Assembly: GCF_010499455.1 (NCBI RefSeq)
Contig: NZ_JAAGOH010000004.1
Span: 124,001 to 188,000 of the forward strand
DNA length: 64,000 bases
Direction: 5' to 3'
Source of the DNA: Ideonella livida
GTDB taxonomy: Bacteria > Pseudomonadota > Gammaproteobacteria > Burkholderiales > Burkholderiaceae_C
This document shows, piece by piece, positions 2,657-41,901 of the stretch. Positions within the stretch are counted from its first letter, which is position 1. Each line of letters begins with the position of its first letter. A program made the position numbers and the translations under genes. The notes beneath the pieces are model-generated. The model ran no database searches. It was given only the letters and a program-made list of their open reading frames with translations, and was not told the DNA's origin.

Positions 2657-4471
2657 TCAACAGGTGCGATGCACCGGCTCGGTGCGGGTCACCAACCAGG
2701 TCAGTGCCTCACCCTGCAGGTGAGGGGCCAGGCGCGCACGCACAGTGGCGTGGTAGTCATCGAGCCAGTCGAGCTCGTCGGCACGCAACAGCGAGAGGTC
2801 CAGGCAGCGGGTGTCGATAGGGCAGAGCGTCAGGGTCTCGAACGCCAGAAATTCACCAAACTCTCCAGCCGGGGCGGGCACATTGAGGACCAGGTTCTCG
2901 ATGCGCACCCCCCAGCGTCCGGGCCGGTACAAGCCCGGCTCCACCGAGGTGATCATGCCCGGCAGCATGGCAGTGTGCGGCTCCGGCATGGCCTTGCTGA
3001 TGGTTTGCGGGCCTTCGTGCACGTTCAGAAAATAACCCACGCCATGCCCGGTGCCATGGCCGTAATCCAGGCTCTGCGCCCACAGGGGTGCCCGCGCCAA
3101 GCTGTCCAGGAACGGCGCGGGTGTGCCCAGCGGAAAGCGGGCTCGGCTCAGCGCCAGGGTGCCCTTGAGCACAAGGGTGTAGTCCCGGCGGTGCTCGGCA
3201 CTGACCTGACCCACCGGCCACACGCGGGTGATGTCGGTGGTGCCGCCGAGATACTGAGCGCCTGAATCAATCAGCAGCAACCCGTCACCTTGGATCGTGG
3301 CGAATGAGGCGGGTGTGGCGCGGTAGTGTGGCATCGCGCCATTGCCGTTGAAGCCGGCAATGGTGGGAAAGCTCAGCCCGACAAAACCCGGCTGCAGGCG
3401 CCGCTCGGCGGTCATCCGCTCGTCGATGGTCAACTCGGTCACCGTCTCGCCGCGGGACAAGGCCGCTTCCAGCCAGGCATAAAAACGGCACATCGCCACG
3501 CCGTCCTGCACCATGGCCTCGCGCACATGGGCCGCCTCCGCCTCTGACTTACGGCTCTTGGCCAGCGTCGAGGGATTGAGACTCTCCACCACACGGACCG
3601 ATTCGGGCAATGCCTGCCTGAAGCCCCAGGTAACGCGGCGCGGATCCAGCAGTACCACGGCCGGCGCCTCCAGGCTGGCCAGCCGGTGCCGCAAATCGGC
3701 GTAGGGCTTCAACTGCACGCCGTCAGCGGCCAAAACCGCCTGCACCGCTGCAGGCACCTTGCCGGTGCCCACAAACAGTTCGGCCGACGACATGTCCAGC
3801 AGCAGATGCGCCAAGAAGACCGGGTTGTAGTCGACGTCTGCGCCGCGAAGCAAGGTCAGCCAAGCCACATCGTCCAGGCTGCTGACCAGATGGTGGGTTG
3901 CCCCCAGGCGGGCCATCTCGGCACGCACAGCGGCAAGTCGCTCCTGCCTTGGCTGGGTGGCAAAAGGCGCTGCATGGGCATACACCGGCTCCGCCGGCAA
4001 CCCGGGCCGCTCAGGCCAGGCGGCGGCCAGCGGATCACGGTCGGTCACCCACTCGATGCCGGCCTGCACGCAGGTGGCCTGAAGTTGGCGGGCCGCCGCG
4101 AGCCCCAGCACATCCCCATCGACCAGCAGTCGCTGTCCGCGCTCCAGTTGGCGGGTGATCCACTCCAGATGGTGCGTGGCGGCGCCGGTCGGGATCCGGA
4201 CCAGGTCGATGCCAGAGCCCTTGAGCTCGGCCTCCGCCTGTTCCCAGTAGCGGCTGTCGGCAAACAGCGCCGCTTGATCGCGCGTCACCACCAAGGTACC
4301 CATGGAACCGGTGAAGCCACTGAACCATTCGCGTCCCTGCCAGTGCCCAGGCAGGTATTCACTGAGGTGCGGATCGGAAGAGGGCACCAAGACGGCATGG
4401 GCATCCATGGCCAAAAGGTGGGCTCGCAGGGCAGCCAGTCGCTGCGTGACGGGCAGGGCGGGGACGTCCAT
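2657..4471 (-). CDS. Aminopeptidase P family protein (Xaa-Pro aminopeptidase, long form)
   Basis: A metallo-aminopeptidase of the M24B family that removes N-terminal residues preceding proline. The 604-residue product has the three-domain long form (two creatinase-like N-terminal domains and a pita-bread catalytic domain), comparable with eukaryotic APP1 at about 600 residues, rather than the 440-residue E. coli PepP. Metal ligands expected of the family are visible: Asp in IDSGAQY and in TTDITR, His in GHGTGHGVGYFLNVHEGP, Glu in TSVEPGLY and Glu in GVRIENLV. I start at the ATG at 4471 (MDVPALPVTQ), because the 112 residues that could be added upstream are an Arg/Pro-rich artefact of high GC. 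The ribosome binding site there is weak. No signal peptide, so cytoplasmic. Confidence 0.92.
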   Translation of the reverse strand: MDVPALPVTQRLAALRAHLLAMDAHAVLVPSSDPHLSEYLPGHWQGREWFSGFTGSMGTLVVTRDQAALFADSRYWEQAEAELKGSGIDLVRIPTGAATHHLEWITRQLERGQRLLVDGDVLGLAAARQLQATCVQAGIEWVTDRDPLAAAWPERPGLPAEPVYAHAAPFATQPRQERLAAVRAEMARLGATHHLVSSLDDVAWLTLLRGADVDYNPVFLAHLLLDMSSAELFVGTGKVPAAVQAVLAADGVQLKPYADLRHRLASLEAPAVVLLDPRRVTWGFRQALPESVRVVESLNPSTLAKSRKSEAEAAHVREAMVQDGVAMCRFYAWLEAALSRGETVTELTIDERMTAERRLQPGFVGLSFPTIAGFNGNGAMPHYRATPASFATIQGDGLLLIDSGAQYLGGTTDITRVWPVGQVSAEHRRDYTLVLKGTLALSRARFPLGTPAPFLDSLARAPLWAQSLDYGHGTGHGVGYFLNVHEGPQTISKAMPEPHTAMLPGMITSVEPGLYRPGRWGVRIENLVLNVPAPAGEFGEFLAFETLTLCPIDTRCLDLSLLRADELDWLDDYHATVRARLAPHLQGEALTWLVTRTEPVHRTC

Positions 4472-4627
4472 GGGCTTGTGGCGGCGGGGCGTGCCGTGTG
4501 TCGGAAAGCCGCGGATTCTAGAAGCCGGGGCCCGGGGGAACGAAAAGGGCATTCCCTGCCGCCGATCGGGGAAACCAGCACCCAACGCAGGGCGTAGCAG
4601 AGGACGCGGGAAGAATCTTGCCGGTAC

Positions 4628-4645
4628 GCCCGCCTGGTGGCGGGC
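4628..4645 (-). terminator. Stem-loop immediately after ntrC
   Basis: GCCCGCC and GGCGGGC form a perfect 7-bp stem with a 4-base loop, 12 bases beyond the ntrC stop codon. No T-run follows on the minus strand, so it may be a 3' stabiliser or a rho-associated end rather than an intrinsic terminator. Confidence 0.4.
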
Positions 4646-4656
4646 ACGGGCAGCGG

Positions 4657-6213
4657 TCAATCGTCCAGTCCGAGCTCCTGGATCTTGCGGGTGATGGTAT
4701 TGCGCCCGATACCCAGCTTCTGCGCCGCCTCGATACGTCGCCCTCGCGTGGTCCCAAGGGCCGTCTGGATGAGGCGCGCCTCGAACTGGCGGGTCAGGCT
4801 GTCCCACACATCGGGTCGATTGGCGTCGAGCATGCGGTGGGCCACCCGTTCCAGGTCGGCCAGCCAGTCGGCGTCCTCGGTCGCCGCATCGGCCGGCCCA
4901 GGGGAAGGCAGCACCACGGGCGGCAAGGTGGGCAGACCGGGGTTGGCCGGCGCCGGTGGCATGGTCGGCATGGGCACGGGCGCCGTCGCCAGCGGCATCA
5001 TCGGTGCCACCAGGGGGCGCACCTCCGCCGCCAAAGGCGTGTCCGCACGCTGCTGCAACAGCTCGGGTGGCAGATCTTTAGGCTCGATGACCTGGGCCGG
5101 CGCCATCACCGTCAGCCAGTGGCAGATATTCTCCAACTGGCGCACGTTGCCCGGGAAATCAAATGCCCTGAGCCGCTCCAGCGCCTCCTCGGTGATGCGC
5201 TTGGGTTCAACCCCCAGCTCCTTGGCACTCTTCTGGAGGAAGAACCGGGCCAATGCAGGCACGTCCTCCGAGCGCTCACGAAGGGGCGGCAGGCGCAGCC
5301 GGATGACATTGAGCCGGTGGAAGAGATCCTCCCGGAATACGCCGTCCTTGACCCGCAACTCCAGGTTCTGGTGCGTGGCCGCGATGACGCGCACATTCGC
5401 CTTGAGCGGCTGGTGCCCGCCTACGCGATAGAACTGCCCGTCGCTGAGCACCCGCAACAGACGGGTCTGCAGGTCAAAGGGCATGTCGCCGATTTCATCG
5501 AGGAACAAGGTGCCCCCGTCGGCCTGCTCGAAGCGGCCCCGGCGCATGGTTTGCGCGCCGGTGAAGGCGCCGCGCTCATGCCCGAACAGCTCAGACTCCA
5601 GCAGGTCCTTGGGAATGGCCGCGGTGTTGATGGCGATGAACGGTCCGTTGGTGCCCAGGTCACCGCGGGGGCTGTGGCGGTGCAGCGCTCTTGCCACCAA
5701 CTCCTTGCCGGAGCCGCTCTCCCCGGTGATGAGCACCGTCACATTGCTTTGACTGAGCCGGCCGATGGCACGAAACACATCCTGCATGGCCGGCGCCTGA
5801 CCTAGGATCTCGGGCGCCGGCCCGTTGCGCTCGTCGCTGACCTCCTCGCGCAGGCTTTCGTCCACCGCACGGCGGATCAGCTCTACCGCCTTAGGCAGGT
5901 CAAAGGGCTTGGGCAGGTACTCGAAGGCCCCCCCTTGGAAGGCGGAAACCGCCGAATCCAAGTCGGAGTAGGCGGTCATGATGATGACCGGCAGGCTGGG
6001 CAGACGCTCCTTGACCCGCGACAGCAGGTCCAGGCCCGAACCACCGGGCATCCGGATGTCGCTGACCAGCACCTGGGGCTCATCGCTTTCCAGGGCCGCC
6101 AGCACATCCCTCGGGTTGGAGAAGCTGCGCACGGCGAGCTGCTCCCGCGCCAGCGCCTTCTCCAGCACGAAACGGATGGATTGGTCGTCGTCAACGATCC
6201 AGATGGGTTTCAT
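4657..6213 (-). CDS. ntrC: Nitrogen regulation response regulator NtrC (NR(I))
   Basis: Sigma-54-dependent activator of nitrogen-starvation genes. The 518-residue protein has the full three-part layout. The receiver (about 1-120) has the acidic pocket D8-D10, phospho-acceptor D52 in SDIRMPGG, T80 and K102. The AAA+ domain (about 140-380) has Walker A GESGSGKE and the GAFTGA loop (here HERGAFTGAQ) that contacts sigma-54. The C-terminal Fis-type helix-turn-helix ends in IGRNTITRKIQELG. An Ala/Pro-rich linker of about 60 residues, longer than in enterics, joins the last two. It lies 16 bases downstream of its kinase gene ntrB. The glnA control region at 9437-9584 carries sites of the type this protein binds. 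Confidence 0.97.
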   Translation of the reverse strand: MKPIWIVDDDQSIRFVLEKALAREQLAVRSFSNPRDVLAALESDEPQVLVSDIRMPGGSGLDLLSRVKERLPSLPVIIMTAYSDLDSAVSAFQGGAFEYLPKPFDLPKAVELIRRAVDESLREEVSDERNGPAPEILGQAPAMQDVFRAIGRLSQSNVTVLITGESGSGKELVARALHRHSPRGDLGTNGPFIAINTAAIPKDLLESELFGHERGAFTGAQTMRRGRFEQADGGTLFLDEIGDMPFDLQTRLLRVLSDGQFYRVGGHQPLKANVRVIAATHQNLELRVKDGVFREDLFHRLNVIRLRLPPLRERSEDVPALARFFLQKSAKELGVEPKRITEEALERLRAFDFPGNVRQLENICHWLTVMAPAQVIEPKDLPPELLQQRADTPLAAEVRPLVAPMMPLATAPVPMPTMPPAPANPGLPTLPPVVLPSPGPADAATEDADWLADLERVAHRMLDANRPDVWDSLTRQFEARLIQTALGTTRGRRIEAAQKLGIGRNTITRKIQELGLDD

Positions 6214-6229
6214 TCAGCGTCTTTTCCGG

Positions 6230-7324
6230 TCAGGGCAGGGGGATCAGGATCTTGAACACCGTGCGTCCCGGCTCACTCTCGCATTCGATCGTGCCCTGGT
6301 GCTGCTGCACGAAGGTCTGCGCTAGCGTCAAGCCGAGCCCCGAACCGCCTTCCCGTCCTGACACCAACGGGTAGAAGATGCGGTCCTTGAGTCCTTCCGG
6401 AACGCCAGGGCCGTTGTCTTCGACATGCAATTCCAGTGCCAGACGGAAGCGCTGCTTGCCGATGGTGACCTGACGATGCACCCGCGTACGCAGCACGATG
6501 CGTGCGTCGCCCATGTCGATGCGGTCCTGCAAGGCCAGGGCGGCGTTTTGCACAATGTTGAGCACCGCCTGGATGAGCTGCTCCCGGTCTCCCCGGAACT
6601 CGGGGATGGAGGCGTCGTAGTCGCGCTGCACCCGCAGCCCGCGGGGGTGTTCGGCCAAGGTAAGCGAACGCACCCGCTCGCAGACCTCGTGGATGTTCAC
6701 GTCGGTGACCACATGGGGTTTGCGGTGCGGCGCCAGCAGGCGGTCGACCAGGGTTTGCAGGCGATCGGCCTCATGGATGATCACCTGGGTGTATTCGGTG
6801 AGCTCCGGCGAGCGCAACTCCATGGCCAGCAACTGGGCAGCGCCCCGGATGCCCCCCAAGGGGTTCTTGATCTCGTGGGCCAAGTTGCGGATCAACTCCT
6901 TGGTCACCTGCGCCTGTCCGAGCACGCGCTCCTCACGGTCCTGCCGGGTTTGCTGCTCGATCTCGATGAGCTCAACCAAGACCTTGTGGTGGCTGTGGTC
7001 GATCTGGCTGACGATGACATGCACCGGTACAGCCTCGCCGGGCAGAGGCAAGGCGCGACGCAGTGTGGTCTCGAACCGGCGGGTGGCAAACTCGTTGCAC
7101 GCCACCGCCTGAAGCGCCTCCTGCAGCGCCACCGGCTCGCGCACCCATTCGAGCAGGCTGCGTTGCACCAAGGTTTTGCGAGAGAGGCCGACCACGGCCT
7201 CCAGGACGCTGTTGACGAAGAGGCAGGATCCGTCAGGTCGCACGACAGCCACCATGGTGGCCAAATGATCGAAGCTCTCCCAGGCACGCAGCTCGGCGGC
7301 CTCTTGATTGCGCAGCAGTCTCAC
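6230..7324 (-). CDS. ntrB: Nitrogen regulation sensor histidine kinase NtrB (NR(II))
   Basis: Cytoplasmic kinase/phosphatase partner of NtrC, itself controlled by PII. The 364-residue protein has no membrane segment. It has a PAS sensor domain (about 15-125), the dimerisation/phosphotransfer helix with H150 in NLAHEIKNPLGG, and a GHKL ATPase domain with the N-box (NIVQNAALAL), DNGPGVP and GGSGLGLTL. The start is a GTG at 7324 overlapping the TGA of the preceding gene by 4 bases, which implies translational coupling. Upstream of this GTG the only other candidate would lie inside the neighbour's reading frame. Confidence 0.96.
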   Translation of the reverse strand: MRLLRNQEAAELRAWESFDHLATMVAVVRPDGSCLFVNSVLEAVVGLSRKTLVQRSLLEWVREPVALQEALQAVACNEFATRRFETTLRRALPLPGEAVPVHVIVSQIDHSHHKVLVELIEIEQQTRQDREERVLGQAQVTKELIRNLAHEIKNPLGGIRGAAQLLAMELRSPELTEYTQVIIHEADRLQTLVDRLLAPHRKPHVVTDVNIHEVCERVRSLTLAEHPRGLRVQRDYDASIPEFRGDREQLIQAVLNIVQNAALALQDRIDMGDARIVLRTRVHRQVTIGKQRFRLALELHVEDNGPGVPEGLKDRIFYPLVSGREGGSGLGLTLAQTFVQQHQGTIECESEPGRTVFKILIPLP

Positions 7325-7842
7325 GTGCCTCCCAGTTTGGCGATCTCGCGTCGGATGGCGGCCACGTCCGCCTCCTTGCGGGTCAGTGCGGCCTTAAGCG
7401 ACTCGGTGCGCTCCAGATACTTCTGGCCGTTGCGCTCATCGCCACGCCGCTCGGGCTCGCCGTTGTTGTATTCCTTGCGCAGCGCCTCCAGCGCCGCCTC
7501 TTCCTTGCGCAGCTCCGCCTCCAGTATGCGGCGCGCATCGGTGTCCCGTGCCTCCTGCTCGGCACGCTGGACGCGGACATCAGGGGTGTTGGGGCTGCGG
7601 GTGGGCTCACTGCTCGCGCTGGGTCGTGCCCTGGCCGGGGCCGGCACGGTGGCGGGGGTGGCTGCCTCGCGGGATTTACACCCCTTGGACTCCGCCTCCT
7701 TGGCGGTCAAGGTGTTGGTGAAGACATTGCCCGGACAGATGTAGTACACATTCTGGGCCGACGACGGCGTGGGAACCCACGGCAGAGTCAATGCCAGGCC
7801 CAGGGCGGCCAGCGGAAGCGTAGGGGAGGATGTGCTGCGCAT
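7321..7842 (-). CDS. Exported protein of unknown function between glnA and ntrB
   Basis: 173 residues. A signal peptide is visible (residues 1-30: MRSTSS, a hydrophobic Leu/Ala core, then PSSAQNVYYI, with cleavage likely after SSAQ or SSA). The mature start, YYICPGNVFTNTLTAKEA..KGC, has two Cys and looks like the short extracytoplasmic fold of DUF4124-type proteins. The second half (about 95-170) is charged, Glu/Arg/Ala-rich and predicted coiled coil. It is translationally coupled to ntrB through a 4-base overlap and follows glnA after a terminator. The position suggests a conserved passenger of the glnA-ntrBC cluster; I cannot assign a role in nitrogen control. Confidence 0.75.
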   Translation of the reverse strand: MRSTSSPTLPLAALGLALTLPWVPTPSSAQNVYYICPGNVFTNTLTAKEAESKGCKSREAATPATVPAPARARPSASSEPTRSPNTPDVRVQRAEQEARDTDARRILEAELRKEEAALEALRKEYNNGEPERRGDERNGQKYLERTESLKAALTRKEADVAAIRREIAKLGGT

Positions 7843-7863
7843 CGTGCGATTCTGTCGCCAAAG

Positions 7864-7895
7864 AAAAAAGGGGATGGCCAGGCCACCCCCTTTTC
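7864..7895 (-). terminator. Terminator after glnA
   Basis: On the minus strand AAAAGGGG, a stem continuing through TGGCC/GGCCA, and CCCCTTTTTT form a strong hairpin with a T6 tail. It lies about 20 bases after the glnA stop and would separate glnA from the ntrBC transcription unit, allowing partial read-through. Confidence 0.85.
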
Positions 7896-7913
7896 ATGCG
7901 TGAACGGCAGTTA

Positions 7914-9329
7914 TCACAGGGTGTAGTACATGTCGTACTCGACCGGGTGCACGGCCATGCGGAAGCGGGTCACTTCTTGCATCTTCAGGTCGATGTAGGC
8001 ATCGATGAAGGCGTCGGTGAACACGCCACCCTTGGTCAGGAACGCACGGTCCTTGTCCAGGTACTCCAGAGCCTGGTCCAGGCTGTGGCAGACGGTCGGG
8101 ATCAGCGCGTCTTCTTCCGGCGGCAGGTGGTACAGATCCTTGGTGGCGGGGTCGCCAGGGTGGATCTTGTTCTCAACGCCGTCCAGGCCGGCCATCAGCA
8201 GCGCGGCAAAGCACAGGTACGGGTTGGCCGAGGGGTCCGGGAAGCGGGCTTCCACGCGACGGCCCTTCGGGTTGGCCACGTACGGGATGCGGATCGAGGC
8301 CGAGCGGTTCTTGGCCGAATAGGCCAGCTTCACCGGAGCTTCGAAGCCCGGCACCAGACGCTTGTAGCTGTTGGTGCCCGGGTTGGTGATGGCGTTCAGG
8401 GCGCGGGCGTGCTTGATGATGCCGCCGATGTAGTACAGCGCGAACTCGCTCAGGCCGGCGTAGCCGTCGCCAGCGAACAGGTTCTTGCCGTCCTTCCACA
8501 CGGACTGGTGCACGTGCATGCCGGAGCCGTTGTCGCCCACGATCGGCTTGGGCATGAAAGTGGCGGTCTTGCCGTAGGCATTGGCCACGTTCACGATGAT
8601 GTACTTCTGCAGCTGGGTCCAGTCAGCGCGCTGCACCAGCGAGCTGAACTTGGTGCCGATTTCCATCTGGCCGGCGTTGGCCACTTCGTGGTGGTGCACT
8701 TCAACGGGAATGCCCATCTGCTCGAGCAGCAGGCACATTTCCGAGCGCATGTCTTGGCCGCTGTCGACCGGGGGCACCGGGAAGTAGCCGCCCTTGACGG
8801 TGGGGCGATAGCCCTTGTTACCGTGCTCGTAGTCCTTGCTGGAGTTCCAGGCGGCTTCTTCCGATTCGATCTGGAAGAAGGAACCACCCATCTCATTGCC
8901 CCAGCGCACGCTGTCGAACACGAAGAATTCGGGTTCCGGACCGAAGTAGGCGGCGTCGCCGAAACCGGCCGACTTCATGTAGGCCTCGGCACGGCGGGCC
9001 AGGGAGCGCGGATCACGCTCGTAAGGCTTGCCGTCGGTCGGGTCGATGACGTCGCAGGTCAGGATCAGGGTCGGCTCTTCGAAGAACGGATCGATGTTGG
9101 CCGTGGTGGGATCCGGCATCAGCAGCATGTCGGAGGCTTCGATGCCCTTCCAGCCGGCGATGGACGAACCGTCGAACGCATGGCCCGAGGTGAACTTGTC
9201 CTCGTCGAAAGCGGAAACGGGCACGGAGACGTGCTGCTCCTTGCCACGGGTGTCAGTGAAGCGGAAGTCAACGAACTTGACTTCGTTGTCCTTCACCATC
9301 TGCATCACATCGGCGACGGTCTTGGCCAT
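7914..9329 (-). CDS. glnA: Type I glutamine synthetase
   Basis: Condenses glutamate and ammonia to glutamine with ATP; dodecameric central enzyme of nitrogen assimilation. 471 residues, the usual GS-I length. Family blocks are present: DGSSIAGW near residue 50 (Asp latch), the metal-binding [12 protein letters not shown] and [23 protein letters not shown]-like [14 protein letters not shown], and the adenylylation loop [10 protein letters not shown] with Y400. The enzyme is therefore predicted to be controlled by GlnE adenylylation. I start at ATG 9329 (MAKTVADV), preceded by GGAG at 8 bases; the in-frame TTG one codon earlier is unlikely. Expression is predicted to be NtrC/sigma-54 dependent (see 9437-9584). 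Confidence 0.98.
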
Positions 9330-9436
9330 CAAAAAGGCTCCTGGCGGATGAGTTTCAACGGATATCGTGAGTCGTTAGGGACGGCCTGCCAGCGCCTCAA
9401 GGCTGCCGGGGCCGATCTTTCACGGCGCAGCGAATG

Positions 9437-9453
9437 TAGCAGAAACCATGCCC
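9437..9453 (-). promoter_or_regulatory. Sigma-54 (RpoN) promoter of glnA
   Basis: Minus strand reads GGGCATGGTTTCTGCTA: GG and GC separated by exactly 10 bases, close to the -24/-12 consensus TGGCAYG-N4-TTGCW. The predicted start of transcription is near 9427, leaving a leader of about 97 bases before the glnA ATG. Confidence 0.8.
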
Positions 9454-9521
9454 AAAAAAGGTGAACAGGCACTGTCGCCGAGCTTCCAAGATCCGGGGTT
9501 TCCCGCGAGATGCAGGATCAA

Positions 9522-9538
9522 TGCACCAACATGGTGAG
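9522..9538 (-). promoter_or_regulatory. NtrC-type enhancer site, promoter-proximal
   Basis: TGCACC-N5-GGTGAG matches the NtrC consensus TGCACY-N5-GGTGCA at 10 of 12 defined positions. Its centre is about 103 bases upstream of the predicted glnA start, a spacing close to that of the E. coli glnA enhancer. Confidence 0.75.
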
Positions 9539-9567
9539 GCGCATGCGGCCAATATGGTGCATTGCAA

Positions 9568-9584
9568 TGCACTCAGGTGGTGCT
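9568..9584 (-). promoter_or_regulatory. NtrC-type enhancer site, promoter-distal, overlapping the end of the neighbouring gene
   Basis: TGCACT-N5-GGTGCT, about 149 bases upstream of the predicted start and 46 bases from the proximal site. It runs into the stop codon and last codons of the gene at 9573-10361. The perfect 16-bp palindrome GTGCATTGCAATGCAC (9557-9572) overlaps it and may extend the binding surface. Confidence 0.7.
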
Positions 9585-10361
9585 TACACGAATGCCCGCG
9601 AAGGCGCTCAAACCGGCCTGCAGCGCAACAAAGGCTGCTTGTGCCGCCTTCGGCTCCCCCTTGACGCCCAGCTCGATGTGTCGCCCCCGCTGAGGGTGAT
9701 CCACGCTCGGCAGGCTGAACACCTTCACCCCAGGATGCTCAGCTTCCACCCGTTCCATCAGTGGGGTCAGGGTGGACTCCATCGCCTCGTAGACATAAAC
9801 CGAGAGTTCTTGCCATTGCACAGGAACCAGATGACCGTAACGCTGGTCCAGCACCCAGGCCATCATGGGATGCGCCATGACGGGAAAGCCGGGCAGGAAA
9901 TGGACGTCGCCCAGGCTGAAGCCGGGAATCTTGTTGTAGGGGTTGGGAATGATCTGCGCATTTGCCGGAAAGACACCCATGTTCAGCCGGTGTAGGTTGT
10001 CCGGACGATCTGGCTCGTAGGGCTGACCGGTCTCCCGTGCCATGTCCTGGATGCGCTCCTGGATCAGGCGCTTGGCCTCGGGGTGCAGAGCCAGGTCCTG
10101 ACCCGCTGCGGCAGCGGCACAGGCCCGGGTGTGGTCGTCCGGTGTGGCGCCAATGCCACCGCAGCTGAAAACGATGTCACCGCTGGACATGGCCTGCCGC
10201 AGCGCGTCGGTGATGCGCGCCGGCTCGTCGCCCACGTACTGGCACCAAGAGAGGCTCTGGCCCCGCTCGGCCAGCAGCTCGATGGTGCGGGTCATGTGCT
10301 TGTCCTGGCGGCGACCCGAAAGGATTTCATCGCCGATGATGATGAGGCCGAAAGCCGGCAT
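9573..10361 (-). CDS. MoCF-domain protein (CinA N-terminal / molybdopterin-binding family)
   Basis: 262 residues resembling the N-terminal MoCF_biosynth half of CinA. It begins FGLIIIGDEILSGRR.D and has the phosphate/molybdopterin loop FSCGGIGATPDDHT near residue 88 and LPGFPVMAHPM near 170, which corresponds to LPGxPxE in CinA/MoaB. The C-terminal deamidase domain of full CinA is absent. Stand-alone proteins of this type are common in beta- and gammaproteobacteria; proposed roles are pyrophosphatase-like nucleotide clean-up rather than proven cofactor synthesis. It is not next to the molybdenum cofactor genes at 51.9-54.6 kb. ATG 10361 has AGGAG at a good distance. Confidence 0.85.
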   Translation of the reverse strand: MPAFGLIIIGDEILSGRRQDKHMTRTIELLAERGQSLSWCQYVGDEPARITDALRQAMSSGDIVFSCGGIGATPDDHTRACAAAAAGQDLALHPEAKRLIQERIQDMARETGQPYEPDRPDNLHRLNMGVFPANAQIIPNPYNKIPGFSLGDVHFLPGFPVMAHPMMAWVLDQRYGHLVPVQWQELSVYVYEAMESTLTPLMERVEAEHPGVKVFSLPSVDHPQRGRHIELGVKGEPKAAQAAFVALQAGLSAFAGIRVSTT

Positions 10362-10420
10362 GCGCGCTCCTGGGGTTGGGGGCCCGATTGTGAGGGCAGC
10401 CCATCAGCCCTGCAGCGGTC

Positions 10421-11404
10421 TCAGGCTCGACCGCACAGGCGCTTCAGGCCCAACCACTGCTGGCGCCAGAACCCTTCACCGTAATCGCGGCCGCCCTCTT
10501 CGGGCAGCTGGTCGCGGATGCCGGTAGGCTCCACCCCCCGGGTGAACCGCACCGTGCCAAACAGCAGGTCCCAGATGGGCAGCAGCACGGCAAAGTTGTG
10601 GCCGCCCAGGCGTCGCTGCGGCCCGCTCTCGTGCCCCAGGCCGATGGCATGGTGCAGCCGGTGGTAGAGCGGACTGACCAGCAGGTAGCGCCCCACCGGC
10701 CCGAAGCTCCAGCGCAGGTTGGCATGCGAGAGGTTTTCCAAGGCCTGGGACAACAGCACCAAGGCCATGAACTGGCCAGGCGGCACCCCGACGATGCGGG
10801 CAGTCACCACGAAAAGCACATCCACGACGAGGTCATCGAGCAGGTGGTTGCGGCTGTCGGTGAATGGATTGAGGTGGCGTTGGCTGTGGTGCAGGGCGTG
10901 CAAAGCCCACCAAGCCGAGAACTGGTGCTGGCCGCGATGGATCCAGTACATCAGGAAGTCAAAAGCGACCAGGTACACGAGAAAGCCCGCGACGGCGGTA
11001 TCGGTGACACCAGGCCACCAAGGGGCCACCCACTGGTCCAGGTGCCAGCCATCCACCCCATGGACCGCCAGCCAGCCGAACAGGCCATTCCACAGGTCAC
11101 CCAGCGCCAGAAACAATCCCAGCCGCACCACCCCCAGCCGCTGCAGCAGCGTGTAGACAAGGTCGACCCGAACCGCCTGCCGCCAGGCGGTGCGGGCAGG
11201 CCCGACCGGCTCGGCCGGCCACAGCCGCTGGAGCGGGAACAACACCAGCGCCACGATCAGGATTTGAATCAAGCCGCCCAGCACCCAACCCAAGCCATCG
11301 TAGGCGTCTGGCAGCAAGTTGCCGGCACCCAGGCCGAACATCAGGGGCTGGACCAGCGCCTCGAAGAGGAGCTGCTGCGTTTGGGCGAGGAGTTCTTCAA
11401 GCAT
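10421..11404 (-). CDS. Sterol desaturase / fatty acid hydroxylase family membrane protein
   Basis: 327 residues with about five hydrophobic segments (near 15-35, 45-65, 90-115, 135-160 and 205-225), so an integral inner-membrane protein. The eight-histidine di-iron signature is visible in order: HRGQH, HALHHSQ and, near the C-terminus, HRLHHAIG, with extra His in SRNHL. These enzymes use O2 to hydroxylate or desaturate lipid chains; the substrate here cannot be told from the sequence. It lies 24 bases downstream of the deacetylase gene and may share its transcript. Confidence 0.87.
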   Translation of the reverse strand: MLEELLAQTQQLLFEALVQPLMFGLGAGNLLPDAYDGLGWVLGGLIQILIVALVLFPLQRLWPAEPVGPARTAWRQAVRVDLVYTLLQRLGVVRLGLFLALGDLWNGLFGWLAVHGVDGWHLDQWVAPWWPGVTDTAVAGFLVYLVAFDFLMYWIHRGQHQFSAWWALHALHHSQRHLNPFTDSRNHLLDDLVVDVLFVVTARIVGVPPGQFMALVLLSQALENLSHANLRWSFGPVGRYLLVSPLYHRLHHAIGLGHESGPQRRLGGHNFAVLLPIWDLLFGTVRFTRGVEPTGIRDQLPEEGGRDYGEGFWRQQWLGLKRLCGRA

Positions 11405-35560: not shown

Positions 35561-36829
35561 TCAGGCCCCGGTCGGGTCGTCGCCGGTGGTGGCGTCATGT
35601 CGGGTGTCGTCGTCCACGTGGAGGTAGAGCGCCGTGGTCTCCAATGAGGCGTGACGCAGATTGCGCTGGATGAAGCGCAGATCGGTGCCCGCATCGGCCT
35701 GGAAGGTGGCCGCCGTGTGTCGCAGCCAGTGGGTGGAGGCCCGCTGCAGGCGATGGGCCCCGGCCGGGTCCTGCGGCGCCAGGGCCTCGGCAGCCTCGGT
35801 GCACAGGCCTTTGACGATCAGGTAGACCGCTGTCGGGGTGAGTGCCCGCGGCTTGCCCGAGAGCGGCAGGATCAGGGGCGTGGTCTCTTGTGGCGCTGGC
35901 AACGCGCTGAGCCCGTGGCCCTGCCGGTAGCGGGCCAGGTCGGCCATCAAGCTGGCCGAGACCGGCACCTCCCCTTGCAGCCCCCCCTTGCCGAGCACCC
36001 GCAGCCACCATCGCCCGCGGCGGCGGCTGAGGTGGCCGGCCTGCGCCGCCGCAGCCTCCGCCGCACGCAGGCCGGTGCCCTGCAGGAATCGCAGCGTCCA
36101 GCGGGCACGTTCCAGCCGGACCTGCTCCCGGCGCGCCTGCGCCGCGTCCGGCTTGGCCTGGATCGGATCCACAGGGGCAGCCTCCACCGGCAACGCCAGT
36201 CGCCCGTCCACCCAGCGCATCAGCCAGTGCCAAGTCTGCGGCTCCAGGTAGCGGTCCACCAGTTGGTCCCGCCCCTGGGGGCCGCCACGGCGCGCCCGCC
36301 GCATGGCCAGGGGATTCACCGCCAGGTAGCCGCCGGCACTCAGATAGGCGAACAGCCCGGCCAGCACGCCCATGGCATGCCGCAGGCTGGCCGGGGAGAG
36401 CGGGCCAGCCAGCAAGCGACGGCCACCGCCGCGCCGAGGCTGCCGGGGATCGCACCAGTCGGCCGGCGGATCGGCCAGAAAGCGCTCATAGGCCAACAAG
36501 TCGGCCCGGTCCAGGCTGGAAAGCGGCTTGGCGCGCTGGTGCCAGGCCCAGCACATCAACCGCTCCGCCTCCTTGCGATAGGACCGCAAGGTGTGGGGCG
36601 ACCCGGCGTGCTCGGCCAGCCAGGTCCGCACAGCATCCACATCGCGCTCCGCATGCAGCCAGCGCGGGCCTTCAGGCGCACGGTTGGTGCCCGGGGTCTG
36701 GTCCAGCAGGTCCAGTGCCCGCGCCAGGTCCTCCAGCGTAGGGGGCAGGGCCATGACCTGCCCGTTTGCCGCGAGCGGAGCAGGCAAGGGAACGGCGTCG
36801 GCGTCATCAACAGCGGCGGGAAGGGTCAT
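35561..36829 (-). CDS. Tyrosine-type site-specific recombinase/integrase
   Basis: 422 residues from ATG 36829. The N-terminal SAM-like core-binding domain (about 60-170) has HTLRSYRKEAERLMCW and ADLLAYERFL. The catalytic domain has Arg-I in GTGLRAAEA, Lys in GKGGLQGEVPV, HxxR in HWLRHTAATF, and His plus the nucleophile Tyr in RHASLETTALYLHV, where the usual LGH is LRH. All catalytic residues are therefore present. An earlier ATG at 36871 would encode 14 Ile/Thr-rich residues from the AT-rich intergenic region and is less likely. It is divergent from a KfrA-like gene. A dif-like 28-bp sequence lies 1.2 kb away. No phage or conjugation genes surround it. Confidence 0.9.
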   Translation of the reverse strand: MTLPAAVDDADAVPLPAPLAANGQVMALPPTLEDLARALDLLDQTPGTNRAPEGPRWLHAERDVDAVRTWLAEHAGSPHTLRSYRKEAERLMCWAWHQRAKPLSSLDRADLLAYERFLADPPADWCDPRQPRRGGGRRLLAGPLSPASLRHAMGVLAGLFAYLSAGGYLAVNPLAMRRARRGGPQGRDQLVDRYLEPQTWHWLMRWVDGRLALPVEAAPVDPIQAKPDAAQARREQVRLERARWTLRFLQGTGLRAAEAAAAQAGHLSRRRGRWWLRVLGKGGLQGEVPVSASLMADLARYRQGHGLSALPAPQETTPLILPLSGKPRALTPTAVYLIVKGLCTEAAEALAPQDPAGAHRLQRASTHWLRHTAATFQADAGTDLRFIQRNLRHASLETTALYLHVDDDTRHDATTGDDPTGA

Positions 36830-36934
36830 GGCACCAATATTTTTGATAATCAGAGTAATCGTAAAAATCATACCTGAATCATTACCTGTATAACGTGATA
36901 CGCTTCTAAATTACACATCAATAGGAAGCCATGC
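36830..36934. promoter_or_regulatory. AT-rich divergent control region of recombinase and KfrA-like gene
   Basis: About 105 bases strikingly AT-rich against the GC-rich surroundings. It contains an imperfect tandem repeat, AATCATACCTG (36866-36876) followed directly by AATCATTACCTG (36877-36888), and a near-perfect 14-bp palindrome GTATAACGTGATAC (36888-36901, one mismatched pair). AGGA at 36923-36926 serves the KfrA-like ATG at 36935. These elements are plausible operators for the KfrA-like protein. Confidence 0.7.
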
Positions 36935-37960
36935 ATGAGCCGCCCCACCGACACCCGAGCCCGCACCCGCGAGGTGGCCCAGCGCTGGCTGGGGCAGGGC
37001 AGACTGCCCCATGAAGTGACGGTGGACCTCGTGCGGCAGGAGATCCAGCAAGGCAGCCGCACCACCATCAACGAAGAGCTGCGTGCCTGGCGCCTGGAGG
37101 TGTCGCGCAGTGCCACCTTGGCCCTGCCAGCGCTGCCGCCCCCCTTGGGCCAGGCCATCCAGGCCCTGTGGGTCCAGGCTGTTGACCTGTCCCGGTCGGA
37201 ACTCACCCAGGAACGAGAGGCCCTGGCGATGTCTCGTGAGCAGTGGCAGGCCGAACGGGACCAGGCCCGCCAGGCCTGCACGGTCATGGAGCAGCGCCTG
37301 CGCGATCTGGAGGCCGGTCAACAGACGCTCCAAGAGTCCCTGCAGTCGGCGGAGACCGCCCTGGCCCACGAGCGACAGGAACGACGCCTGCTTCAGGACC
37401 GGCTGGAGGCGTCCCGCCAGCAGCGCGATGCGGAGCGCCAACAGGCCCTAGATCGGGAACAAGCGCTGACGCAGTTCCACCAGCAGGCCTTGGAGGCGCA
37501 CCAACGCCAGACCCAGACACGGGAGTCGGAGTACCGGGCGGAGGTGTCCCGCATCACCGAACGGATGGAGTCCGTGCAGCGGCATGTGCTGCGCCAGCTG
37601 GAAGAATCCCGCGAGCAGCTGCGCAAGTGGGAACAGCAGACGCAGCTGCTGCAGCGGGAGCTGGACAAGACTCGCCAACAAGCGGAGGACATGCGCCGGG
37701 AAGCGTCTGCCCAGCAGGCGCAGGCGCAGGCTCGCCATGAAGTCCAGCAAAACAGCCTGAAGGAAGAGGCCCGGCGCTGGCGCGACCAGGCCGTGGCCGC
37801 TGAGGCGGCACGCCAGGCCGCCCAAGAGGCGCTGGCCGGGCACCTGAACAAACCAGCGAGCGCGCCGCCAAATCCAGCGCGCCAGACCTGCCGGGACCGG
37901 GCAGCCCGACGTCGGGAGCGCCTTTCACGCCCGGCGCAGGCGCACGGAGAAACGGCCTGA
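36935..37960 (+). CDS. KfrA-like coiled-coil DNA-binding protein
   Basis: 341 residues. The N-terminal 60 or so (RTREVAQRWLGQGRLPHEVT, then VDLVRQEIQQGS-RTTINEEL) resembles the KfrA N-terminal helix-turn-helix domain of IncP-type plasmids. Residues about 85-320 are an almost uninterrupted heptad-rich coiled coil, high in Gln, Glu, Arg and Ala and poor in Gly/Pro. The last 40 residues are basic and Pro-rich. KfrA proteins bind their own promoter and form long filaments that aid plasmid segregation. Here the gene is chromosomal and paired with a tyrosine recombinase, so a role in controlling it or organising DNA is an inference. Confidence 0.82.
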   Translation: MSRPTDTRARTREVAQRWLGQGRLPHEVTVDLVRQEIQQGSRTTINEELRAWRLEVSRSATLALPALPPPLGQAIQALWVQAVDLSRSELTQEREALAMSREQWQAERDQARQACTVMEQRLRDLEAGQQTLQESLQSAETALAHERQERRLLQDRLEASRQQRDAERQQALDREQALTQFHQQALEAHQRQTQTRESEYRAEVSRITERMESVQRHVLRQLEESREQLRKWEQQTQLLQRELDKTRQQAEDMRREASAQQAQAQARHEVQQNSLKEEARRWRDQAVAAEAARQAAQEALAGHLNKPASAPPNPARQTCRDRAARRRERLSRPAQAHGETA

Positions 37961-38061: not shown

Positions 38062-38089
38062 ATTTGACATAACAAACATTGTCGGAATT
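38062..38089 (-). other. dif-like XerC/XerD recombination site candidate
   Basis: Read on the minus strand, an 11-base arm AATTCCGACAA, a 6-base centre TGTTTG and an 11-base arm TTATGTCAAAT. The right arm differs from the E. coli XerD arm (TTATGTTAAAT) at one base. Over all 28 positions I count 19 matches to E. coli dif and about 21 to the neisserial dif as I remember it. The same bases also read as a plus-strand TTGACA-N17-ATTAAA promoter, an alternative explanation. It lies 101 bases after the KfrA-like gene. Confidence 0.5.
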
Positions 38090-38191: not shown

Positions 38192-38269
<78 letters not shown>

Positions 38270-40452: not shown

Positions 40453-40557
40453 AATCCACCGGGGCGCCTCCCCCGAACTTGTGATGTCTGGTAACAATGC
40501 GCGTGCCAGAATTTGCAATCTGTTCAGGCACCGCGCCTGGCCTCCGGAGGACCCCCG

Positions 40558-41901
40558 ATGAAGAAGCCGTTCAAGCTCGCCGCCTTGCTGGGTTGTCTCC
40601 TGCTCGCCCCCTGGGCGGTGCAGGCCCAGTCCACCCCGCTGTCCATCAGCATCAACCAGACCAACCCCGACGGCTCCACCAGCCGCTTCGCCGCCTCGTT
40701 CACCAAGTTCGAGGACATGGTGGACACTTTCAAGAGCACCGAGGCGATGCGGGCCTTCTTCGGGCCCAGCTTTGATCCTGCAGCGGCCTCCAGCTCCAAG
40801 ATCAACTACCTGGGTGTGGACCTGTTGGTGCAAACCCAGCCGGGCGGCTCCCTGGGCACGACGGGCACGCTGAGCATTCCGGCCACAGGCTTCTCCGCCA
40901 CCTACGAAGGGGTCAACCGCACCGAAACCCTGGACAAGGTCAAGGTGGACGTGGAGAAGCAGTTCGCGGGCATCCAGGCCGCCGTGGTGGCCACCACCCC
41001 CAACAGCACCATCGCCGGCAACCCGGCCTCGACCCAGTCGCAGATGGCCAGCAGCCAGTTTGACGCGGGCTTCACCGCCACGTCCTCGCAGATCAAGACA
41101 CCGGAGGCCGCCGCGGCACAGGTGAGCAGCTCCAGCTCGTCGTCGAGTTCGTCCTCCAGCTCTAGCACCAGTGCGGCCACGTCCGCCGCCACCTCCAGCG
41201 CGTCCCAGCCCAACTTGGTGGGTCTGGGCTTCCGCTTCGGCCGCTACAACCAGGGCAACCTGAAGGCGTCCTCGGCCACCCTGCCCTTGTCCTACACCTG
41301 GCGCTTTGAAGACGACGAGCGCCGGCACGTGACCTTCTTCGCACCGCTGACCATCGGCAAGATCGACAACGCCAAGGTCTACAACGGTCAGCTGGGTCTG
41401 TCCATGGGCATCCCGATCACGCCGGAATGGGCCCTCACCCCGTCGGTGGCGGCCGGCATCTCCGGTTCGGTGGACTTGGCACAGGCCTCCAAGCAGGTGA
41501 GCGCGTCCGTCACCAGCGCCTATGTGATGCCCTTGAGTGACAGGCACTCCCTGGCATTCGGCAACATGGTGGGCTACTTCCGCACCCTCAAGCTCCGGAT
41601 CGACGAGTACGAAATGGATCCGAAGATCGCCAACACGATCTTCCGCAACGGGGTGATGTACGCCTTCCCGGTTGATGTCCTCTCCAGTCTGGAGTCCGAC
41701 CTGAGCATGGAGCTCTCGTACATCAACACCTATTACACCGGCAGCGAGCTCTACAACAAGACGACCAACGAGTTCGGCGTGACGGTGGGCACCAGCAAGT
41801 CCAAGAAGGAACGTCTGGTGAGCTACCTGCGCTTTGGCGTGACCTACCTGCGCGCCAAGGATTCCAGCGGCTTTGGTGCCAACGTCGGCTACTGGTTCTG
41901 A
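40558..41901 (+). CDS. Exported protein with poly-Ser linker and probable beta-barrel C-terminus
   Basis: 447 residues from ATG 40558 (GGAGG at 40546-40550). Signal peptide: MKKPFKLAALLGCLLLAPWA, cleavage likely after VQAQ. The N-terminal half (25-180) is Ser/Thr/Ala-rich without recognised domain. A 14-residue Ser run, then Thr/Ala/Ser, forms a flexible linker near 195-220. Residues 225-447 alternate polar and hydrophobic positions with Gly/aromatic turns (LVGLGFRFGRYN, LPLSYTWRF, YLRFGVTYLRA) and end in GYWF, a terminal Phe as in BAM-assembled outer-membrane barrels. Located between nadC and the convergent nadB, but no link to NAD is evident. I do not recognise the family. Confidence 0.8.
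   Translation: MKKPFKLAALLGCLLLAPWAVQAQSTPLSISINQTNPDGSTSRFAASFTKFEDMVDTFKSTEAMRAFFGPSFDPAAASSSKINYLGVDLLVQTQPGGSLGTTGTLSIPATGFSATYEGVNRTETLDKVKVDVEKQFAGIQAAVVATTPNSTIAGNPASTQSQMASSQFDAGFTATSSQIKTPEAAAAQVSSSSSSSSSSSSSSTSAATSAATSSASQPNLVGLGFRFGRYNQGNLKASSATLPLSYTWRFEDDERRHVTFFAPLTIGKIDNAKVYNGQLGLSMGIPITPEWALTPSVAAGISGSVDLAQASKQVSASVTSAYVMPLSDRHSLAFGNMVGYFRTLKLRIDEYEMDPKIANTIFRNGVMYAFPVDVLSSLESDLSMELSYINTYYTGSELYNKTTNEFGVTVGTSKSKKERLVSYLRFGVTYLRAKDSSGFGANVGYWF

Follow-up and report, generated by a model that had tools for sequence, protein, structure and literature searches.

Transposons of the Tn3 family that resemble Tn4651 possess a type of resolvase composed of two proteins, TnpS and TnpT, with a site called rst between their genes (described in the accessible portions of PMC7157771 and PMC4619425). 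For this family it has been reported, in text likewise available in part, that TnpS recombines at rst and that TnpT acts as a helper. XerS and XerH, according to the excerpts available from PMC2731167, are recombinases that are each linked to a site of their own at the terminus. The subject of this report is a divergent pair of genes that may be compared with both of these systems. It is located in a stretch of 64,000 nucleotides from Ideonella livida (contig NZ_JAAGOH010000004.1, positions 124,001 to 188,000; hereafter the window) and encodes a tyrosine recombinase and a KfrA-like coiled-coil DNA-binding protein. To judge from its sequence, the pair is a TnpS/TnpT/rst-type cointegrate-resolution module, of the kind known from some Tn3-family transposons. 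Its family is ordinary and its location, beside dif, is unusual. The best reading of the data presented below is that such modules settle repeatedly beside dif and stay there.

The TnpS-like recombinase gene occupies 35561-36754 on the reverse strand and encodes 397 amino acids, with a match to PF00589 of 60.2 bits. The TnpT-like gene occupies 36935-37960 on the forward strand, and its product matches PF11740 with 63.7 bits, for a cut-off of 26.1; a profile search shows a KfrA_N domain and, after it, a long coiled coil, and an assembly-wide search found this protein to be the sole match to PF11740. A preliminary description of this DNA, made from the sequence without database searches, had reported two divergent open reading frames (ORFs) at these coordinates, and both are present with the profile matches just given. 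It had begun the recombinase at 36871; the gene is real, and this start is probably too far upstream. The ATG at 36754 is most likely the true start, because the alignments with the ten best plasmid matches start only at residue 61 of the 36871 ORF and because the annotated starts of plasmid matches fall near the equivalent of 36754. The first 39 residues of the 36871 ORF would therefore be read-through of the control region, which would comprise 180 bp (36755-36934). Residues R230, K256, H342, R345, H368 and Y377, numbered in the protein that begins MALPPTLED, show no variation in an alignment of 11 proteins. We take these to be the catalytic residues, all of which the preliminary description had held to be visible. 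Among the NCBIfam models the highest-scoring for the recombinase was XerC, with a score far below the cut-off, and the protein is not an orthologue of XerS or XerH. The pair is not plasmid-borne; its contig of 236 kb also carries nadA, nadB, nadC, a tRNA-Pro gene and dif.

The best 80 of 554 relatives of the recombinase were taken as loci. Of the 30 closest loci, 26 have a KfrA-like gene next to the recombinase gene and divergent from it, and in two of the four exceptions (L123 and L128) the contig ends just beyond the core. When the plasmid matches of the KfrA-like protein were inspected, nine of ten were found to adjoin a match to the recombinase, and the tenth record also has an annotated divergent pair. 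The two genes thus recur as a unit, as had been proposed for the window, on both plasmids and chromosomes. The accompanying proposal, that the arrangement is new, must be abandoned, since it is already known as the TnpS, TnpT and rst of Tn4651-type transposons (in the available text of PMC7157771). The window recombinase is 49-58% identical to those of seven paired relatives, whose TnpT-like proteins are 33-38% identical to that of the window. It is 55% identical to a TnpS that adjoins a Tn3 transposase on a C. taiwanensis plasmid (L095), where 38-bp inverted repeats at 6631 and 19476, with 4 mismatches, bracket the transposase, TnpT and TnpS as one complete element. Within flanks of at most 10 kb, 21 of the 80 loci have a Tn3 transposase near the pair, among them half (15) of the closest 30. 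In five loci (L135, L137, L140, L141 and L082) the two genes, tnpS-like and tnpT-like, do not adjoin: about 4 to 9 kb of other DNA lies between them, and in L082, from genome G029, this DNA includes a Tn3 transposase.

The divergent pair of plasmid pWW0, which we take to be TnpT/TnpS of Tn4651, has a spacer that is likewise 180 bp long, and its presumed TnpT is a KfrA_N protein (93 bits). The KfrA proteins of the window and of pWW0 are 30% identical over 135 amino acids (E = 0.001), and the two recombinases give no blastp hit to one another. Because this KfrA match is weak and the recombinases are without a hit, kinship with Tn4651 itself must be distant; other transposons, such as the element on L095, are closer kin. 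The window pair shares with the modules of Tn4651, TnXax1 and TnXocp1 a tyrosine recombinase divergent from a helper, with a two-part inverted-repeat site between them, and it shares KfrA_N with the helper-side protein of pWW0. Unlike a Tn4651-type module, it has no transposase or transposon ends, lies beside dif and is distant in sequence from the pWW0 pair. The window protein also resembles the KfrA proteins of plasmids in its KfrA_N domain and long coiled coil but, unlike them, is chromosomal and partnered with a recombinase.

In the window, dif is found at 38062-38089 on the reverse strand, as AATTCCGACAA-TGTTTG-TTATGTCAAAT, which matches our dif pattern without mismatch and lies 101 bp past the stop codon of the tnpT-like gene. 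The preliminary description, which gave the pair itself correctly, had overlooked this site. The assembly contains no other match to the dif pattern and none to a control pattern, and the site scores 38.9 with a matrix built without it. The next site in the 64 kb scores 1.3 and is the rst core described below. KOPS (FtsK orienting polar sequences), in forward and reverse orientation respectively, number 11 and 1 to the left of dif and 2 and 9 to its right (Fisher P = 6e-4), and the cumulative GC skew reaches its maximum at 35943, 2.1 kb from dif (block permutation P = 0.0009). With this flip in KOPS and the nearby skew peak, dif marks the replication terminus in the window. The KOPS consensus used was GGGNAGGG.

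Is this placement peculiar to the window? An even draw of 399 genomes of the family was sampled, and a TnpS match with E <= 1e-60 was present in 24 of them. The dif pattern was devised after the sites in the window's assembly (G000 in our genome numbering), G028, G337, G293, L105, L155 and L176 had been viewed. Of 37 recombinase-bearing genomes, 30 have a single match, G434 has two and six have none, and the reversed control pattern gave none in all 37. Among the 24 family carriers a genome-wide match was found in 18, the remainder being G006, G060, G187, G250, G251 and G282. Pair and dif share a contig in 14 of the 18 and are on separate contigs in G029, G075, G194 and G307. In seven genomes they are close together, with spacings of 65 bp (G337), 70 bp (G028), 101 bp (the window), 128 bp (G265), 566 bp (G216), 1352 bp (G293) and 1366 bp (G342, where the one of three recombinase matches that is on the dif-bearing contig was measured). 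In all seven of these pairs within 1.4 kb, dif lies past the tnpT stop, and its orientation with respect to tnpT varies.

With a chance probability of about 0.001 for each genome, close placement in 7 of 18 corresponds to P = 3e-17, a per-genome value that kinship makes too small; counted by genus, the result is 5 of 13 (P = 1e-12). Since the sites in G000, G028, G337 and G293 shaped the pattern, stricter counts matter, and omission of these four leaves 3 of 14 close (P = 4e-7). Scans near the pair that allowed two mismatches found a site 2244 bp from tnpT in G060 and another about 40 kb away in G187. These two genomes were left out of the counts because such scans are able to find near sites only; a looser count that includes them gives 8 of 20 genomes and 6 of 17 genera. 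The 80 loci, which were gathered regardless of position, contain a dif match in 8 cases, where 0.27 would be expected if all were chromosomal, and 5 remain without the pattern-shaping L105, L155 and L176. In L171 dif is only 22 bp from tnpT, and in L173 the end of a KfrA_N gene, next to its recombinase, is 541 bp from dif. L176 (Methylotenera mobilis 13, 6139-11140) has two mirror-image TnpS/TnpT-like pairs around a single dif (8676-8703), at distances of 284 and 187 bp. Searches of an open-access library gave no report of repeated, one-sided placement of such pairs beside dif.

Two other loci may be mentioned here. In L120 (Dyella sp. RRB7, 2957-4859) a KfrA_N gene on the reverse strand (3247-4170) ends 262 bp from dif and is divergent from a short ORF similar to the beginning of a different family of recombinases; about 5.8 kb from the same dif there is a second pair, this one Tn3-bearing. 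At 3110 in L018, from a member of the window's genus (G009), there is a dif-like site with two mismatches; a tyrosine recombinase ORF of a different and longer kind is ~1.1 kb away.

The 180 bp between the two genes can be aligned with the tnpS-tnpT intergenic region of the same seven relatives. Within it, a core at 36839-36866, ATTTTTGATAA-TCAGAG-TAATCGTAAAA, is conserved across all eight regions and is presumed to be the TnpS crossover site; the core pattern has one match in the 5.26-Mb assembly and a control pattern has none. A second, imperfect palindrome at 36878-36901 aligns with ATTACGTATATAACGTAAT-like sequences in the relatives and is a putative accessory site, to which TnpT would bind by analogy with the system treated in the available part of PMC4619425; the preliminary description had already drawn attention to this stretch. 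Searched against plasmids by blastn, the intergenic DNA gave no match. The other large group of TnpS proteins has an 11-6-11 palindrome as its core, and in 17 of 19 regions inspected 8 to 11 of the 11 positions match; for G265 and G414 the script chose another repeat. The core arms of this group resemble the XerD-side arm of dif, which in the window we presume to be TTATGTCAAAT, and the core arm TAATGTCAAAT of L171 differs from TTATGTCAAAT by one base.

No transposon surrounds the window pair. The window's assembly, which is 99.2% complete, contains no match to DDE_Tnp_Tn3 (PF01526), and between 25001 and 50000 there are no 38-bp terminal repeats that begin with G[GA]GG and have at most 9 mismatches. 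Inverted repeats of up to 44 nucleotides at 71-81% were listed, some of which span the pair, and these we take to be due to chance in GC-rich DNA. Without a Tn3 transposase or 38-bp terminal repeats, a complete transposon or island is rejected. The same is true of an integrative mobile element exploiting Xer (IMEX) bounded by two copies of dif, since the window has a single dif-like site. We also considered, and rejected, insertion at the tRNA-Pro gene (38193-38269). Among 12 nadA regions from genus mates, all of them without the pair, 11 have the same tRNA-Pro(tgg) upstream of nadA, at a distance of about 1.6 to 6.0 kb, and in the window this distance is 0.18 kb; a duplicated tRNA end was not searched for. 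The orphan state extends to other genomes, as 8 of 13 other recombinase-bearing genomes searched, including G006 and G028, have no match to a Tn3 transposase.

Comparisons within genera shed some light on how the pair was acquired and kept. In G337 it lies between dif and the neighboring gene, and the genus mates G035, G186 and G269 have dif at this place without the pair; the extra DNA in G337 is hardly more than the pair itself. The pair of the window and that of G006 each interrupt a genus order, U32-thrH-(moox)-thioesterase, that is partly seen in five relatives. A TnpS tree, for which only those of the 80 loci with E under 1e-100 were kept, unites the window and G006 (97/70), with a warning that long branches meet there, and the genus tree is poorly resolved. 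From these sequences, a single old insertion beside thrH may be shared by the two genomes. G006 was also examined as a case in which dif might have been replaced, and was rejected. Its whole genome has no dif match with the one-mismatch pattern, and at its terminus (C1, about 2.29-2.36 Mb) the pair is near the skew change and the highest-scoring dif-like site of the locus is the rst core. We do not claim replacement, because a weak candidate site is present ~35 kb away (score 19.8, where known sites score 34-43) and the skew changes nearby.

The two dif-adjacent pairs of G028 and G265, which belong to two species of one genus, have ratios of nonsynonymous to synonymous substitution (dN/dS) of 0.07 for tnpS and 0.13 for tnpT. 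Seven other comparisons, within genera or nearly so, gave 0.15-0.33, and those among the window, G006 and G337 gave 0.20-0.40, with dS >1. The values for G028 and G265 indicate purifying selection and support retention of the pair; G028 was found above to have no Tn3 transposase, and G265 was outside that search.

We tentatively favor, as an explanation that falls somewhat short of being probable, the idea that an orphan TnpS/TnpT/rst module, settled at dif, serves as one more resolution unit, with a single recombinase and with activity confined to the neighborhood of dif. In a chromosome dimer, two direct copies of rst would come together as they do in a transposon cointegrate, and TnpS would cross over at the single rst core of each copy. 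TnpT, bound to the neighboring palindrome, would bridge the sites and favor resolution, and it would also repress the divergent promoters. The suggestion in the preliminary description that the KfrA-like protein holds recombining sites together agrees with the helper role reported for TnpT. Its further suggestion, that the protein organizes a chromosomal region, finds a counterpart in the position at the terminus and in nothing beyond this. Orphan copies would be retained near dif because dimer resolution presumably works only there, and in the passages available from PMC2731167 loxP/Cre substitutes for dif at the terminus only. The same excerpts allow a comparison with XerS/difSL and XerH/difH, in each of which one tyrosine recombinase gene is linked to a site of the 11-6-11 type near the terminus. 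Like these, the window has a single site at the terminus, with the core present once in the assembly, dif adjacent and a flip in KOPS and skew. The window unit differs in that a second, TnpT-like protein would be needed, an ordinary dif is adjacent and the recombinase is not orthologous. It is also possible, though we would not press the point, that the module is retained near dif as a second chromosome-resolution system that backs up XerCD/dif and in some lineages is perhaps on the way to replacing it. Such a system, made up of one recombinase, one palindromic site whose arms are XerD-like and a helper of the KfrA kind, would have been taken in repeatedly by this family and beyond.

Several observations weigh against a role in resolution. 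Half of the pairs that share a contig with dif (7 of 14) are 16-135 kb from it: about 16-18 kb in G134, G166 and G382, and 27, 65, 132 and 135 kb in G379, G174, G202 and G414. These are outside the activity zone of dif, which is roughly 10 kb according to the available text of PMC2680272. The Tn3 res site is unable to substitute for dif (PMC2731167, in the part available), and a second system would be unneeded because an ordinary dif is present. The arms of the window core are symmetric at only 7 of 11 positions, and in both the window and G337 the best inverted repeat found by script differs from the rst core. L194, the 20 kb that adjoin the skewed part on its left and end 6 kb inside the left end of the window, has a skew of -0.009, so that the skew signal is a local one. 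Finally, the placement statistic hangs partly on the construction of the dif pattern. When the genera of the four pattern-shaping genomes are omitted together with these genomes, 1 of 9 genera remains close (P = 0.009).

This last point raises the possibility that the closeness to dif is a coincidence or an artefact of a pattern shaped on pair-adjacent sites, four of the seven closest genomes having contributed to it. We consider this very improbable. The pattern matches exactly once in 30 of 37 genomes and its reversed control never does, the excess persists at P = 4e-7 without the four genomes (and is far greater in the full counts by genome and genus), and the 80 position-blind loci show it as well. 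Moreover, the dif of G337 is common to genus mates that lack the pair, and the site in the window is accompanied by the KOPS and skew flip. A more substantial competitor, which could quite possibly be correct, holds that the pair is the remnant of a Tn3-family transposon that inserted preferentially, or was tolerated, at the terminus, lost its transposase and ends, and has no role in the host. The preliminary description had itself allowed that the pair might be left over from a larger element, and this is borne out in part, in that near relatives carry it within Tn3-type transposons. Tn917, of the Tn3 family, prefers the terminus. In L116, L120 and L127, pairs that have a transposase are likewise found near dif, at 6-7 kb, as an insertion bias would give, and this counts against the resolution unit. 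A functionless remnant, however, fits poorly with the intact state of both genes and of the intergenic core in the window and in G006, G028 and G337, when no Tn3 transposase is found in the first three of these and the window pair has no terminal repeats. Nor would it be expected to show the low dN/dS of G028 and G265, or to have dif on the tnpT side in all seven of the closest genome-wide cases.

That one-sidedness might instead reflect a small mobile unit that targets dif by means of its own recombinase or the host XerCD and spreads from dif to dif in the manner of an IMEX. The patchy distribution of the pair (24 of 399 family genomes) fits such a unit, as do the mirror-image pairs around one dif in L176 and the contrast between G337 and the pairless dif of its three genus mates, in which the extra DNA approximates the pair. 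IMEX elements such as GGI and LME-1 are indeed mobile DNA at dif (PMC5357621 and PMC9765430, in the portions available). They differ from the window pair, which has its own recombinase and an internal core site. IMEX integration would leave a second dif-like site, and none is seen at the far end of the window pair. Furthermore, the rst core is unbroken, the gaps between close pairs and dif range from 22 to 1366 bp, and the orientation of dif relative to tnpT is inconstant. For these reasons we regard targeting of dif as unlikely, and we return to the resolution unit as the reading that we prefer.

PMC2731167 asks, as an open question, whether a different recombination system could serve as a backup to dif/Xer or take its place. 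A recurring, transposon-derived unit about 0.02 to 1.4 kb from dif provides natural test cases for such a backup. If the reading that we prefer is true, it would account for the persistence of orphan tnpS/tnpT pairs without a transposase and would link KfrA-type proteins to the biology of the terminus. If one of its rivals holds instead, the data still show that a transposon module is markedly attracted to the terminus.

Two minor features of this genome complete the description. A second relative of the tyrosine recombinase is present in the window's assembly, at 8249-9361 of contig C41, within an open frame of 737 amino acids. In the window, between nadC and nadB, an ORF of 462 amino acids (40513-41901) encodes a protein with a long run of serines in its middle.

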